From: Pedobacter lusitanus
GTDB lineage: Bacteria; Bacteroidota; Bacteroidia; Sphingobacteriales; Sphingobacteriaceae
Reading direction: 5' to 3'
Assembly: GCF_040026395.1 (NCBI RefSeq)
Contig: NZ_CP157278.1
Coordinates: forward strand, 5,704,001 to 5,768,000
DNA: 64,000 bases
Shown: piece after piece, positions 47,343 through 56,024 of the stretch
Numbering within the stretch: the first letter of the stretch is position 1
Layout: each line of letters opens with the position of its first letter
Translations under genes and position numbers: made by a program
Notes under the pieces: generated by a model
Told to the model about the DNA's origin: nothing
The model's input: only the letters and a program-made list of their open reading frames with translations
Databases searched by the model: none

Positions 47343-48548
47343 ATGCGTAAAAAATTGGGCGATAGGATTGCAGCATTTAAAGATGCTAATGCAATTAAGG
47401 AAAAAGGATTATACCCTTATTTCAGATCGATAGAGTCGGCACAAGACACTGAGGTCATCATTGAAGGGAAAAAAGTTTTGATGTTTGGGTCAAATTCTTA
47501 TTTAGGGTTAACAAATCATCCAAAGATTAAAGAAGCTGCAAAACTTGCTGTTGATAAATACGGAACAGGCTGTGCCGGTTCAAGATTCCTTAACGGAACA
47601 TTAGATATACATCTGGAACTGGAAAGAAGACTTGCGGCTTATGTTGGTAAAGAAGCTGCAGTATTATTCAGTACCGGTTTTCAGGTTAACCTTGGGGTTA
47701 TTTCCTGTTTACTGGAAAGAAATGATTATCTGATACTTGATGAATATGATCATGCGTCTATCATTGATGGTAGCCGTTTGTCATTCTCACGTACTATAAA
47801 ATATGCTCACAATGATATGGACGATCTGCGTAAGAAATTAAGCAGATTACCGGAAGATTCTGCCAAACTGATTGTTGCAGACGGAATTTTCAGTATGGAG
47901 GGAGATATTGTGAAGCTTCCTGAGATTGTTCAGCTTGCTGAAGAATTTGGCGCTAATATCATGATGGATGACGCTCATAGTTTAGGTGTTATCGGATTTA
48001 ATGGTTCAGGAGTAGCTTCTCACTTTAACCTGACAGATGATGTAGATCTGATCATGGGTACGTTCAGTAAATCTCTTGCTTCACTGGGTGGATTTATCGC
48101 CGGAACGGAAGAAACTATTGAATATATCAAACACAGGGCACGTTCACTGATGTTCAGTGCAAGTATGCCTCCTTCTGCTGTTGCAAGTGTAATTGCAGCA
48201 CTGGATATTATAGATGAAGAACCAGAACGTATAGATAAACTTTGGGATAACACGAACTATGCAAAAAAACTACTTTTAGATGCAGGATTTGATATTGGAC
48301 ATACAGATAGTCCGATCATACCTGTTTATATCAGAGATAACGATAAAACTTTCCTGATCACTAATATTCTGCACAGGAACGGGATATTTGTTAATCCTGT
48401 TGTTTCACCAGCTGTACCTTCAGATTCTTCTTTAATCAGATTCTCTCTGATGGCTACACATACTTTTGCTCAGATTGAGGAAGCGGTGGATAAACTTTAT
48501 GCTGCTTTTAAAGAAGTTCAGCTAACCCCGGTTAAGGTTAGTATCTAA
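47343..48548 (+). CDS. spt: Serine palmitoyltransferase
   Basis: A 401-residue alpha-oxoamine synthase that condenses L-serine with an acyl-CoA to 3-ketosphinganine, the entry to sphingolipids. The PLP lysine is K243 in [13 protein letters not shown], the stacking His is H137 in EYDHAS, and [19 protein letters not shown] [13 protein letters not shown] and [15 protein letters not shown] are present. Size and residue spacing match the soluble Sphingobacterium enzymes. Related synthases (AKB ligase, BioF) are less likely because of the context: the next genes include an Aur1-like PAP2 protein and a lipid hydroxylase. It is the first gene of the operon. Confidence 0.93.
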
Positions 48549-48551
48549 GCT

Positions 48552-48695
48552 ATGAAACTCATGGTTGCTGCCTGTAGCAAAAAAGATTTTAATTATGTTC
48601 CTGGATTATTTATAACTCAGGAACATAAACTGATCACTGGCAAGCACCCTTTCCTGGAGCGTTTTTCGCTGCAGTTATTTGTAAAAACGATATGA
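48552..48695 (+). CDS. Small ORF (47 aa) between spt and epimerase
   Basis: An ORF starting three bases after the spt stop and ending in an ATGA overlap with the epimerase start (stop TGA 48693-48695, ATG 48692). The product begins MKLMVAACSKKDFNYVPGLF and is basic and moderately hydrophobic, with one Cys; no family was recognised. The packing on both sides suggests either a real small protein that couples translation of the epimerase gene, or the remnant of a longer gene. Confidence 0.45.
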   Translation: MKLMVAACSKKDFNYVPGLFITQEHKLITGKHPFLERFSLQLFVKTI

Positions 48696-49681
48696 AGAAG
48701 CGTGTACTGATAACCGGAGCAAGTGGTTTTGTTGGATACCATTTGATTGCGGCAGCTATATCCTCTGGTTTGGAGGTTTATGCAGCAGTGAGGCCGAGCA
48801 GTAATATCAAACATCTGGGGGAATTTGATATTCAGTATACCAATCCTGATTTCAGTAATATTGATTTATTGAAAAAAGAACTGGAAGAAAAACAGTACAG
48901 CTACATTATACACGCTTCCGGTATTACCAAAGCAAAAACACAGGAAGAATATAATACTGTTAACGCAGAATATACCAGAAATCTGGCTTTGGCAGCTGTA
49001 ACGGCTGCGATTAACCTGGAGAAATTCATTTTTGTAAGCAGTCTTGCAGCTCTGGGCCCCTTAAAAGACCTTTCCGGTTTGATTGAGGATAATTCTCCGG
49101 CTCACCCTGTAACCAATTATGGGGCAAGCAAATTACTGGCTGAACAATATCTGGCAGAGATAAATGGCTTACCACTGATAGTCATTCGTCCTACTGCGGT
49201 TTACGGACCAAGAGAAAAAGACATTTTTATTTTGCTGCAAACTATAAACAAAGGATTAGAACCTCATATAGGTAGTTTTAAACAACAGATTAGTTTTATT
49301 TATGTAAAAGATCTGGCTAAAATTATCATTGATGCACTATTCTCGGACGTAACAAACAAGAACTATAATGTGTCTGATGGTGGTATCTATGATAGATATG
49401 CACTGGCAGAAGGAGTAAAAAAAGCATTGCATAAACGGACATGGAAATTCCATTTACCCGTTTCGGCAGTTTCAGCGTTAGCAGCACTAATGGAGCGGAT
49501 TTATAAAAACTCTGCAGGTGCACCAACACTGAATAAAGAAAAGATGAATGAACTGACCGCTGTTAACTGGGCATGTAATATTGAAAAACTTAAAGCAGAC
49601 CTTGGATTCAAGCCAGCTTATAATCTGGAAAATGGTCTGCTGGAAACAGTTAACTGGTATAAAAATAATAAGTGGCTTTAA
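48692..49681 (+). CDS. NAD-dependent epimerase/dehydratase (extended SDR), candidate sphingoid/ceramide reductase
   Basis: A 329-residue extended SDR. The glycine motif is GASGFVG (9-15), S116/S117 with Y143 and K147 (YGASK) form the catalytic set, and RPTAVYGPRE and the later ISFIYVKDLAKIIIDALF are family blocks. Sphingolipid synthesis needs a reductase for the keto group of 3-ketosphinganine or ketoceramide; in Caulobacter an extended SDR of this class does it. Position right after spt supports that role. A sugar epimerase role is the alternative. Confidence 0.87.
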   Translation: MKKRVLITGASGFVGYHLIAAAISSGLEVYAAVRPSSNIKHLGEFDIQYTNPDFSNIDLLKKELEEKQYSYIIHASGITKAKTQEEYNTVNAEYTRNLALAAVTAAINLEKFIFVSSLAALGPLKDLSGLIEDNSPAHPVTNYGASKLLAEQYLAEINGLPLIVIRPTAVYGPREKDIFILLQTINKGLEPHIGSFKQQISFIYVKDLAKIIIDALFSDVTNKNYNVSDGGIYDRYALAEGVKKALHKRTWKFHLPVSAVSALAALMERIYKNSAGAPTLNKEKMNELTAVNWACNIEKLKADLGFKPAYNLENGLLETVNWYKNNKWL

Positions 49682-54454: not shown

Positions 54455-54463
54455 GAAAAACTC

Positions 54464-55111
54464 ATGAAAAAGAATTTTATATCGAACTCTTCTGAATCTA
54501 TCAGAATGTTCAAAAGCGGCTTTTTAGAAAAACTATCTAAAGTAGATTTTTATGTGCCGCTGATAGTTTTTATTCCTGTTATTGCCTTTTTGATCTGGAA
54601 GGCCTTTGCTGATGCTCAAATGAGTTTCCTTGGTTTTGCAGGCTGGCTGATTATCGGTTTGTTTATCTGGACAATAACAGAATATATTATGCACCGTTAT
54701 ATCTTTCACTTTTATCCGAGTTCAAAAATCGGTAAAAGGATACATTTTATTTTCCATGGTGTTCATCACGATTATCCGAATGATGCAAAGAGACTGGTAA
54801 TGCCTCCATCGGCAAGTATTCCTATGGCGCTTGCTTTATATTTTTTCTTTTTGTTTATCCTGCCGGCCGGTACTATATTTGCTTTTTATGCAGGATTTCT
54901 GATTGGTTATTTATTTTATGATATGGTGCACTATGCTTTACACCATGCGAATTTTAAAAATTCATTCTGGAAGAAATTAAAACAGCATCATATGTTACAT
55001 CATTATTCTGATTCTACCAAAGGCTACGGCGTGAGCTCTGCTATCTGGGATAAAGTATTAGGATCAGATTTTATAAAAAAAGTAAATGACAGACCAGATA
55101 CGGCTGAATAG
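54464..55111 (+). CDS. Fatty-acid/sphingolipid hydroxylase (sterol desaturase superfamily)
   Basis: A 215-residue membrane di-iron hydroxylase. Histidine clusters match the superfamily: H77RYIFH82, then HFIFHGVHHDYPND (H94, H98, H101, H102), YDMVHYALHHANF and LKQHHMLHHYS. The closest functional relatives are sphingolipid alpha-hydroxylases of the FA2H/Scs7 kind, lacking a cytochrome b5 domain here. It starts ten bases after the transferase-DUF4833 gene and overlaps the PAP2 gene by 26 bases. It probably 2-hydroxylates the ceramide acyl chain. Confidence 0.9.
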   Translation: MKKNFISNSSESIRMFKSGFLEKLSKVDFYVPLIVFIPVIAFLIWKAFADAQMSFLGFAGWLIIGLFIWTITEYIMHRYIFHFYPSSKIGKRIHFIFHGVHHDYPNDAKRLVMPPSASIPMALALYFFFLFILPAGTIFAFYAGFLIGYLFYDMVHYALHHANFKNSFWKKLKQHHMLHHYSDSTKGYGVSSAIWDKVLGSDFIKKVNDRPDTAE

Positions 55112-56024
55112 ACCATTTTTCTCCTGGAGAGACATCATCGTAACTACTTCGCTGTCTTTTGCCTATCTGCTGATTTCTTATCTTTTAATCGGATTTAAAA
55201 GTCAGCAGGTTGTATTAATAGTTATTTTTAACTCTTTGTACTACGCTTCTCAGATAACCAGAAAGTTTATTCTTGGGTTTTCTATATTTATAGTTTACTG
55301 GATAATCTTTGATTATATGAAGGCATTTCCCAATTATGCTTTCAATAAAGTGCATATTGCAGAATTATATCATCTGGAAAAACAGGTCTTCGGCATTTTA
55401 TCTGATGGTACTGTTTTAACCCCTAATGAATATTGGAGATTACATGGTAATACTGCTCTGGATGTGATAGGAGGGATCTTTTATCTGATGTGGATTCCTG
55501 TACCCATGGCATTTGCCGGTTACCTTTTCTTTGCAAACAGAAAACTTTTTATCCAGTTTCTGGTCACCTTTGTGCTGGTGAACCTGATTGGTTTTGTGAT
55601 CTATTATCTTTATCCGGCTGCACCGCCATGGTATGTTCAGTATCACGGATTTGTATTTGAAGCCCATACTGCAGGAAATACTGCCGGACTGGCTAAATTT
55701 GACCATTTCTTTAATGCACCTATTTTCAAGTCAATTTACAGTAATGGTTCTAATGTTTTTGCTGCAATGCCTTCTCTGCATTCTTCTTACCCGGTAATCG
55801 TACTGTATTTCGGGTTGAAAAATGAACTGGGACCGATCAATATATTTTTCGGAATTGTGACTGTAGGTATTTGGTTTACAGCTGTCTACACCAGTCATCA
55901 TTACGTATTGGATGTAATAGCCGGTATTACCTGTGCAATAGTAGGAATCAGTCTATTCGGCTGGCTGGCTAAACATACTGCATTAAAGGTGTTCCTGGAA
56001 AAAATGTATACTGTAGTCAGTTAG
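55086..56024 (+). CDS. Aur1/PAP2-type inositolphosphotransferase (inositol phosphorylceramide synthase candidate)
   Basis: A 312-residue polytopic membrane protein of the PAP2_3 (Aur1/Ipt1) type. The family blocks are present: YLYPAAPPWY (175-184), AAMPSLHSSYP with H232, and TSHHYVLDVIAG with H272 and D276. In fungi this class moves phosphoinositol from phosphatidylinositol to ceramide. Together with spt, the hydroxylase and the phosphatidylinositol-phosphate synthase upstream, the same reaction on dihydroceramide is the likely end step. It is the last gene of the operon; the hairpin after it has no T-tract. Confidence 0.9.
   Translation: MTDQIRLNRPFFSWRDIIVTTSLSFAYLLISYLLIGFKSQQVVLIVIFNSLYYASQITRKFILGFSIFIVYWIIFDYMKAFPNYAFNKVHIAELYHLEKQVFGILSDGTVLTPNEYWRLHGNTALDVIGGIFYLMWIPVPMAFAGYLFFANRKLFIQFLVTFVLVNLIGFVIYYLYPAAPPWYVQYHGFVFEAHTAGNTAGLAKFDHFFNAPIFKSIYSNGSNVFAAMPSLHSSYPVIVLYFGLKNELGPINIFFGIVTVGIWFTAVYTSHHYVLDVIAGITCAIVGISLFGWLAKHTALKVFLEKMYTVVS

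Follow-up and report, generated by a model that had tools for sequence, protein, structure and literature searches.

The window analysed here is a stretch of 64,000 nucleotides from Pedobacter lusitanus (contig NZ_CP157278.1, positions 5,704,001 to 5,768,000). It contains a compact operon that runs from spt, the gene for serine palmitoyltransferase, to a gene for an AUR1-like PAP2 protein, which raises the questions of what lipid this operon serves to make and how it relates to the inositol lipid cluster of Bacteroides. We conclude, with a probability of about 0.85, that the operon is functional and, like others of the Bacteroidota kind, directs the synthesis of phosphoinositol-(dihydro)ceramide; comparison with relatives shows that it has been reduced from a longer one. 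All enzyme steps described below are read from protein families, while gene losses are shown by comparison of loci. The source genome is a single contig of 6,049,699 bases (100% complete) and belongs to a Pedobacter that is close to P. cryoconitis (98% in PIPS).

A preliminary description of the window listed eight named open reading frames (ORFs) and a 47-codon ORF, all in one direction, and a check of the ORFs recovered every one of them. It also confirmed the 143-bp gap between spt and the gene for an extended SDR, inside which the 47-codon ORF lies, overlapping the SDR gene by 4 bp. The other junctions range from -26 to +24 bp: SDR/PgpA -10, PgpA/GtrA +2, GtrA/DUF5686 +5, DUF5686/PIPS +24, PIPS/FAH +9 and FAH/PAP2 -26, followed by 133 bp to xseA. 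PIPS is phosphatidylinositol-phosphate synthase and FAH is the fatty-acid 2-hydroxylase. Relatives of the PgpA-type phosphatase align only from residue 10–16, and its start is therefore probably the internal ATG given in Table 1.

The proposal that these genes form an inositol phosphorylceramide (IPC) operon is well supported by the families present, namely spt, BT_1523-type PIPS, PgpA, SCS7/FA2H and AUR1-like, and the same assignments support the claim that sphingoid-base formation, phosphatidylinositol (PI) formation, hydroxylation and head-group transfer are combined in one compact operon. Spt scores above the curated cut-off for Bacteroidota serine palmitoyltransferase, and PIPS above that for the BT1523-type enzyme of the BT-type inositol lipid cluster. 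The catalytic motif DX2DGX2AR...GX3DX3D (residues 79–104) is found in the PIPS of the window and of all 80 named loci described below; the window protein also has an RPER motif at residue 162 and a solved relative in 6h53 (E 7.8e-23). The PgpA-type phosphatase and GtrA neighbours typical of BT-type clusters are present, and an adjacent inositol-3-phosphate synthase (MIPS, Ino1) is not. FAH carries the HHDYPNDAKRLVMPP motif and is related in sequence to SCS7/FA2H, with the pattern HH..P.D..RLV.PP that also occurs in 67 of 73 relatives. The PAP2 protein has the motifs PSLH (229) and HHYVLD (271). The SDR is likely to be a 3-ketosphinganine or oxidised-ceramide reductase, the PgpA-type protein is likely to be a phosphatidylinositol-phosphate phosphatase of the BT_1525 type, FAH is likely to be a ceramide N-acyl 2-hydroxylase and the PAP2 protein is likely to be an IPC synthase. 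The GtrA-like protein is possibly a lipid-handling helper.

Table 1. Coordinates of the operon, its upstream region and the unlinked MIPS gene in the window, with the principal evidence for each feature.
Feature	Coordinates	Strand	Evidence or remark
MIPS (inositol-3-phosphate synthase, Ino1), actinobacterial type	15237..16430	+	PF01658 85.5 bits, match at 15888-16223
TetR-family regulator	46457..47068	+	PF00440 60.8 bits; adjoins spt in 10/11 clade loci
TAGAC-N15-GTCT inverted repeat, candidate operator	47174..47197	.	TAGAC-N-GTC(T/C) in 9/11 upstream regions
Promoter-like footprint TTTG-N18-TATTTTT	47212..47240	+	102 bp before spt
spt, serine palmitoyltransferase	47343..48548	+	NF047600 746.9 bits, cut-off 640
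47-codon ORF, probable relic of X	48552..48695	+	56% over X residues 26-59, E 1.1e-4
Extended SDR	48692..49681	+	PF01370 114.9 bits; in 61/68 fully flanked loci
PgpA-type phosphatase	49672..50160	+	PF04608 129.2 bits; probable start 49708
GtrA-like membrane protein, BT_1524 type	50163..50534	+	PF04138 66.5 bits
CarboxypepD_reg-DUF5686 protein	50540..53101	+	PF18939 168.6 bits, PF13715 70.4 bits
PIPS with C-terminal DUF4833	53126..54454	+	NF052561 PIPSynBT1523 400.5 bits, cut-off 350
FAH, fatty-acid 2-hydroxylase, SCS7/FA2H type	54464..55111	+	SCS7 4zr1 E 4.2e-35, 4zr0 E 8.9e-35
AUR1-like PAP2 protein	55086..56024	+	AUR1 9vj3 E 6.4e-14 (plain sequence search)

The pathway that we propose would start with the coupling of serine and acyl-CoA by Spt. 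An N-acyltransferase, for which the candidate is a gene (here called X) that is unlinked in this genome, would act together with the SDR to give dihydroceramide, and the SCS7-like enzyme would 2-hydroxylate the N-acyl chain. The actinobacterial-type MIPS would form inositol 3-phosphate, PIPS would couple this to CDP-diacylglycerol, and the PgpA-type phosphatase would strip off the phosphate to give PI, from which the AUR1-like PAP2 protein would transfer phosphoinositol to ceramide.

Some points count against this scheme. The SDR is assigned by family and position only, and a profile search matched it to no NCBIfam model above cut-off. The PAP2 protein scores 302.3 bits against NF052609 (profile 5–302 of 305), where the cut-off is 480, so that it would work like a BT1522-type IPC synthase without being a member at equivalog level. 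The MIPS scores above the PF01658 cut-off and reaches 305.8 bits against TIGR03450, for which the cut-off is 638, so that it too is below equivalog level. Finally, the PIPS cut-off was passed by none of 14 control genomes, among them Bacteroides ihuae.

The comparison of gene neighbourhoods called for in the preliminary description supports the operon. Neighbourhoods were taken for 34 PIPS loci and for 80 named loci, the latter being the best 80 of at least 475 confirmed relatives, so that near relatives are favoured in the counts; 68 of the 80 have enough flanking sequence. Pedobacter, Mucilaginibacter, Chitinophaga, Chryseolinea and Taibaiella are among the genera represented. Since 67 of the 68 fully flanked loci are collinear, the gene order is not due to chance. 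The full order spt-X-SDR-MIPS-PgpA-GtrA-DUF5686-PIPS-DUF4833-FAH-PAP2 occurs in 48 of them, and individual genes occur as follows: spt 66, X 55 (counting L183, where X is only 27% identical), SDR 61, MIPS 57, PgpA 68, GtrA 67, DUF5686 67, PIPS 68, DUF4833 67, FAH 62 and PAP2 68. Because relatives hold this 11-gene order with X and MIPS, the window operon, which shares its families and order and has neither of the two genes within it, is reduced and not enlarged. X is absent from nine loci of the clade to which the window belongs, and operon MIPS from ten clade loci and L216. P. nutrimenti (L144) has kept X and lost the operon MIPS; this intermediate state suggests that MIPS was probably lost first. 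Two loci, L140 (the metagenome-assembled genome (MAG) bin_233) and L141 (Pedobacter hartonius), have no SDR in the operon, and their best homologues elsewhere are 28–30% identical; if the pathway works there, a different reductase must act. A literature search, mainly of titles and of passages of open papers, found no description of the operon outside gut Bacteroidetes.

X is a 373-residue protein encoded directly after spt, and the GNAT domain PF00583 was found in all 33 X proteins. In the family set of 151 genomes, X and spt are present in an identical 64, and the remaining 87 have neither. These counts take spt at ≥710 bits, where the next best score is 361, and X at ≥585 bits, where it is 217. 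Weaker homologues are near universal (spt 151/151; X 147/151 with the X profile at E ≤0.001), those of X being found also in genomes without spt. A distant X paralogue, 31% identical, lies at G000:C1:1744985-1746070. The two genes lie within 184 bp of each other in 62 of the 64 genomes, the exceptions being the window genome, where they are 84 kb apart, and P. quisquiliarum (G050), where they are on different contigs. This co-occurrence and adjacency make X the best N-acyltransferase candidate, and we consider it probable that X is the ceramide N-acyltransferase. Against this must be set that the role is based on linkage and co-occurrence, and that outside the clade, too, X is missing from four loci with full flanks (L154, L196, L212 and L215).

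The proposed role is that of bCerS/CerS of Caulobacter, which we take to be a FemAB_like protein (PF04339), whereas X is a GNAT protein. PF04339 matches only one of the 33 X proteins, at E 0.057, and finds nothing in the window genome, while the Caulobacter control is positive. X presumably belongs to a different family from the ceramide synthases of both Caulobacter and eukaryotes. In PMC11334938, spt, bCerS and CerR are stated not to lie close together in Bacteroidota; the linkage of X to spt suggests that another acyltransferase family has been overlooked there. Passages of PMC9278070, citing Stankeviciute 2022, count ceramide synthase among the known Bacteroides sphingolipid enzymes, so X may already be the homologue of a described gene.

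The preliminary description stated that the N-acyltransferase step is absent. This is true of the operon, but an intact homologue of X is encoded elsewhere in the genome, and the 47-codon ORF appears to be what is left of the operon copy. A genome-wide search with X, aimed at other copies, returned window positions 48582–48683. The ORF is present in three loci, namely the window, P. cryoconitis (L138) and PAMC26386 (L139). The L139 copy can be aligned with X from the X start codon onwards, with a gap of 15 codons, and its final codons look by eye like the end of X. None of 2000 shuffles reached the alignment score for any of the three ORFs. L141 (P. hartonius) retains a 29-bp trace, 24 of 29 positions being identical to L139 (0 of 1000 shuffles, with a margin of one point), and no comparable ORF is left in L140–L143, L145, L147 or L150.

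The 47 codons could instead encode a functional small protein, or a leader for translational coupling, under selection: the frame is open in all three loci, pairwise dN/dS is 0.34–0.60 and not 1 (although imprecise on 47 codons), and in the window the stop overlaps the SDR start (ATGA). We regard this as improbable. Among the three ORFs dN is 0.19–0.21, far above the values for spt (0.008–0.010) and SDR (0.039–0.065) in the same pairs. Changes by codon position are 11/15/18, with as many at the third position in 17% of neutral simulations, and all three frames stay open in 20% of them. Furthermore, the L138 ORF is 239 bp from SDR, and the ORF has gone from, or dwindled in, the other loci named above. 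Selection on the ORF is thus unsupported by the simulations and the codon-position changes; weak constraint is still compatible with them.

The intact copy 84 kb from the operon might be the operon gene relocated, and not a gene gained from another lineage, since both are of one family and the unlinked X is 68% identical to a Pedobacter operon copy. This too has little to commend it, because the relic points elsewhere. The window relic has a mean score of 91 with Pedobacter-group operon copies (13 rows) and 71 with unlinked copies (9 rows), although its top single partners are the Bacteroidota MAGs L217 and L186 and not Pedobacter. It also carries GKHPF, a two-residue insert of which is missing from the unlinked copies. 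A tree of X was built on 48 rows from 52 loci offered (part of the set; four loci have no intact X). In it the unlinked copies group together (93/92, not starred) and fall within a branch (99/99) that also holds operon copies of the Mucilaginibacter type, meaning one named row (L203) and the g14 rows that group with it, while Pedobacter operon copies and P. nutrimenti stand apart from them (100/99). The placement of the P. hartonius copy, which has a long branch, is less sure. Nine clade loci have no X in the operon. In eight of these genomes X is encoded elsewhere, with 67–96% identity to the copy in the window genome; the ninth, the clade MAG G158 (3.4 Mb), has no close X at all, which tells against X as the N-acyltransferase. 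We consider it likely that the 47-codon ORF is a decaying relic of X and that an unlinked gene has taken its place.

The supply of inositol shows a similar pattern. The sole match to PF01658 in the complete genome is the MIPS in the window, which lies 31 kb upstream of the operon and is not adjacent to it. A search with PF07994 had found nothing in this genome, and had cast doubt on inositol through the reading that there was no MIPS; that model is also blind to the C. glutamicum control, and the reading was dropped once PF01658 had located the gene. The best solved relative is Ino1 of Mycobacterium tuberculosis (1gr0, 283 bits), followed by a five-membered-cyclitol-phosphate synthase (176 bits), and the stretches SKKISK and DSPNSAGV match Ino1 and not the cyclitol enzyme. 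In the family set, 34 genomes have a BT1523-type PIPS above cut-off and 117 do not. MIPS is present in all 34 and in 11 of the 117 (Fisher p 1e-24, counting genomes as independent), and none of these 45 genomes has two. The canonical type (112–119 bits) is found in 32 of the 34 PIPS genomes, usually about 4 kb from PIPS, and the other type (about 85 bits) in two, the window genome and P. quisquiliarum (G050). All ten clade genomes searched carry the actinobacterial type only (84–86 bits), and both comparison Pedobacter carry the canonical type only (112 and 115 bits). In a tree of the actinobacterial type, Pedobacter and Dyadobacter sequences are mixed in an open fork from which no direction can be read; transfer between them would fit this mixing.

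The 11 genomes that have MIPS without a BT1523-type PIPS (the actinobacterial type in G015, G019, G037 and G063, the canonical type in seven further genomes) show that MIPS has other uses. The MIPS of the window could accordingly serve another purpose, with the lipid inositol scavenged and the operon dependent on an external supply. Its distance from the operon would suit this, and incorporation of external inositol is the title topic of a paper on Tannerella forsythia. We think it unlikely, given that this is the only MIPS of a complete genome and that its type is present in every searched clade genome lacking an operon MIPS; moreover, passages of PMC9246714 describe very minor uptake of inositol into lipids by B. 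thetaiotaomicron. The window MIPS is thus the likely unlinked source of inositol phosphate for the operon.

Least probable of all, and very unlikely, is a head group other than inositol. The transferase and PgpA would then form phosphatidylglycerol, and the PAP2 protein would attach phosphoglycerol or some other group to ceramide. In favour of this, PgpA is named for glycerophosphate, the transferase weakly matches pgsA (34.7 bits, cut-off 109.1), the genome has one further CDP-alcohol transferase, and PMC9246714 mentions what is probably a phosphoglycerol dihydroceramide in Porphyromonas gingivalis. Against it, the BT1523-type model is matched above its cut-off, PIPS enzymes are the best solved relatives, RPER is kept, and MIPS accompanies PIPS in every PIPS genome and lies within the operon in 57 of the 68 loci.

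Since an unlinked X of another lineage and an unlinked MIPS of another type are both present, it appears that unlinked genes have taken over two steps of the inositol phosphorylceramide pathway. The combined picture, in which X is a GNAT-family ceramide N-acyltransferase caught in the middle of its replacement, MIPS has been swapped likewise and the pathway is in the course of being rewired, one gene after another, away from its operon, is put forward tentatively, at slightly less than even odds.

Besides the homologues of the 47-codon ORF and the MIPS in the same window, the analysis added to the preliminary description a DUF4833 domain fused to the CDP-alcohol transferase (PIPS). The domain occupies residues 301–439 of the fusion ORF (window 53987–54454; 169.6 bits). 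Its predicted structure is a confident all-β model (pLDDT 92.5); a structure search gave no solved structure at E ≤0.001 (best E 0.019), and TM-scores by query length are at most 0.35 among the matches listed (50 rows). Within the set of 34 PIPS loci, the fusion occurs in every locus of the window's genus and of genus g20, while most g14 loci have separate adjoining or overlapping ORFs and a few show no DUF4833. By eye, many of the separate ORFs have starts resembling signal peptides, which suggests that DUF4833 is probably located outside the inner membrane. An Olivibacter-like genome (G015, L131:7996-15733) contains the series spt-X-DUF5686-FAH-CDP-alcohol transferase-GtrA-DUF4833, in which the transferase is a different one and PIPS, PgpA and PAP2 are missing; as read from its genes, this is a sphingolipid cluster with a non-established head group. 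GtrA, DUF5686 and DUF4833 are found there without inositol genes and are therefore not tied to inositol; they are probably membrane or envelope helpers that are not inositol-specific. DUF4833 and DUF5686 were named nowhere in the titles and passages covered by our literature search.

Upstream of spt, the sequence TTTG-N17..20-TANNTTT occurs 98–106 bp before the spt start in all 11 clade loci, and an alignment of the 260 bp that precede spt has 90 invariant columns out of 280 (26 among the best 30). As the clade loci are close kin, this conservation is only moderate evidence for the one promoter-like footprint that we predict here. The single promoter that the preliminary description assumed for the whole operon is putative; the observations that bear on it are this footprint and the tight junctions. 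Scans were at chance, both for consensus promoters (36 promoter-like sites, 37.4 expected) and, in the window as a whole, for the Bacteroidota-type pattern (167, 166.3 expected); there was one terminator-like site, on the minus strand, where 5.2 were expected, and none on the plus strand in 46300–56300. The TAGAC/GTC(T/C) repeat, which we regard as a candidate operator, is absent from L150, which has no adjacent TetR gene, and also from L144, which has one. Cobalamin riboswitches were found elsewhere in the window at 23683–23876 (82.7 bits) and 60690–60874 (102.8 bits).

According to PMC9246714 and PMC8791184, the inositol cluster of B. thetaiotaomicron is BT_1522–BT_1526, with spt apart at BT_0870. 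The families of MIPS, PgpA-type phosphatase, GtrA, PIPS and IPC synthase are alike in the two systems, and the logic of PIPS followed by a phosphatase is shared by mycobacteria as well. They differ in that the operon here includes spt, SDR and the 2-hydroxylase, PIPS carries a fused DUF4833 domain, MIPS is outside and of another type, and an acyltransferase relic lies between spt and SDR. The suggestion that the window operon is more complete than that of Bacteroides thus stands as far as the joining of spt to the inositol genes is concerned; it fails in that the Bacteroides cluster has MIPS (BT_1526), which this operon lacks, and already contains PgpA and GtrA (BT_1525 and BT_1524 by family). 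A CarboxypepD-regulatory-like protein, BT_1527, a possible counterpart of the DUF5686 protein, is reported near the Bacteroides cluster. The two papers disagree on BT_1524 (GtrA), inositol lipids on thin-layer chromatography being unchanged in one and IPC being lower in the other.

Two of the proteins have fungal relatives. The Pedobacter PAP2 protein is shorter than AUR1 and shares with it the PAP2 family and the PSLH and H...D motifs over 167 aligned residues, while FAH matches yeast SCS7/FA2H at E 4e-35 over 184 residues, sharing the histidine and RLVMPP motifs. SCS7 also has a cytochrome b5 domain; FAH, at 215 residues, aligns to the hydroxylase part only.

The genes for bacterial inositol sphingolipids were established in B. 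thetaiotaomicron, in which spt is separate from the inositol cluster. The Pedobacter, Chitinophaga and relatives sampled here mostly carry the entire route, from the sphingoid base through to the head group, as a single collinear operon, with all genes present in 48 of 68 loci. This linkage singles out one gene for ceramide N-acylation that can be put to the test, along with the helper genes DUF4833, DUF5686 and GtrA, which also travel with a cluster that has no inositol genes. The relic, in turn, lets one see how an operon sheds a gene for which an unlinked replacement is already in place.

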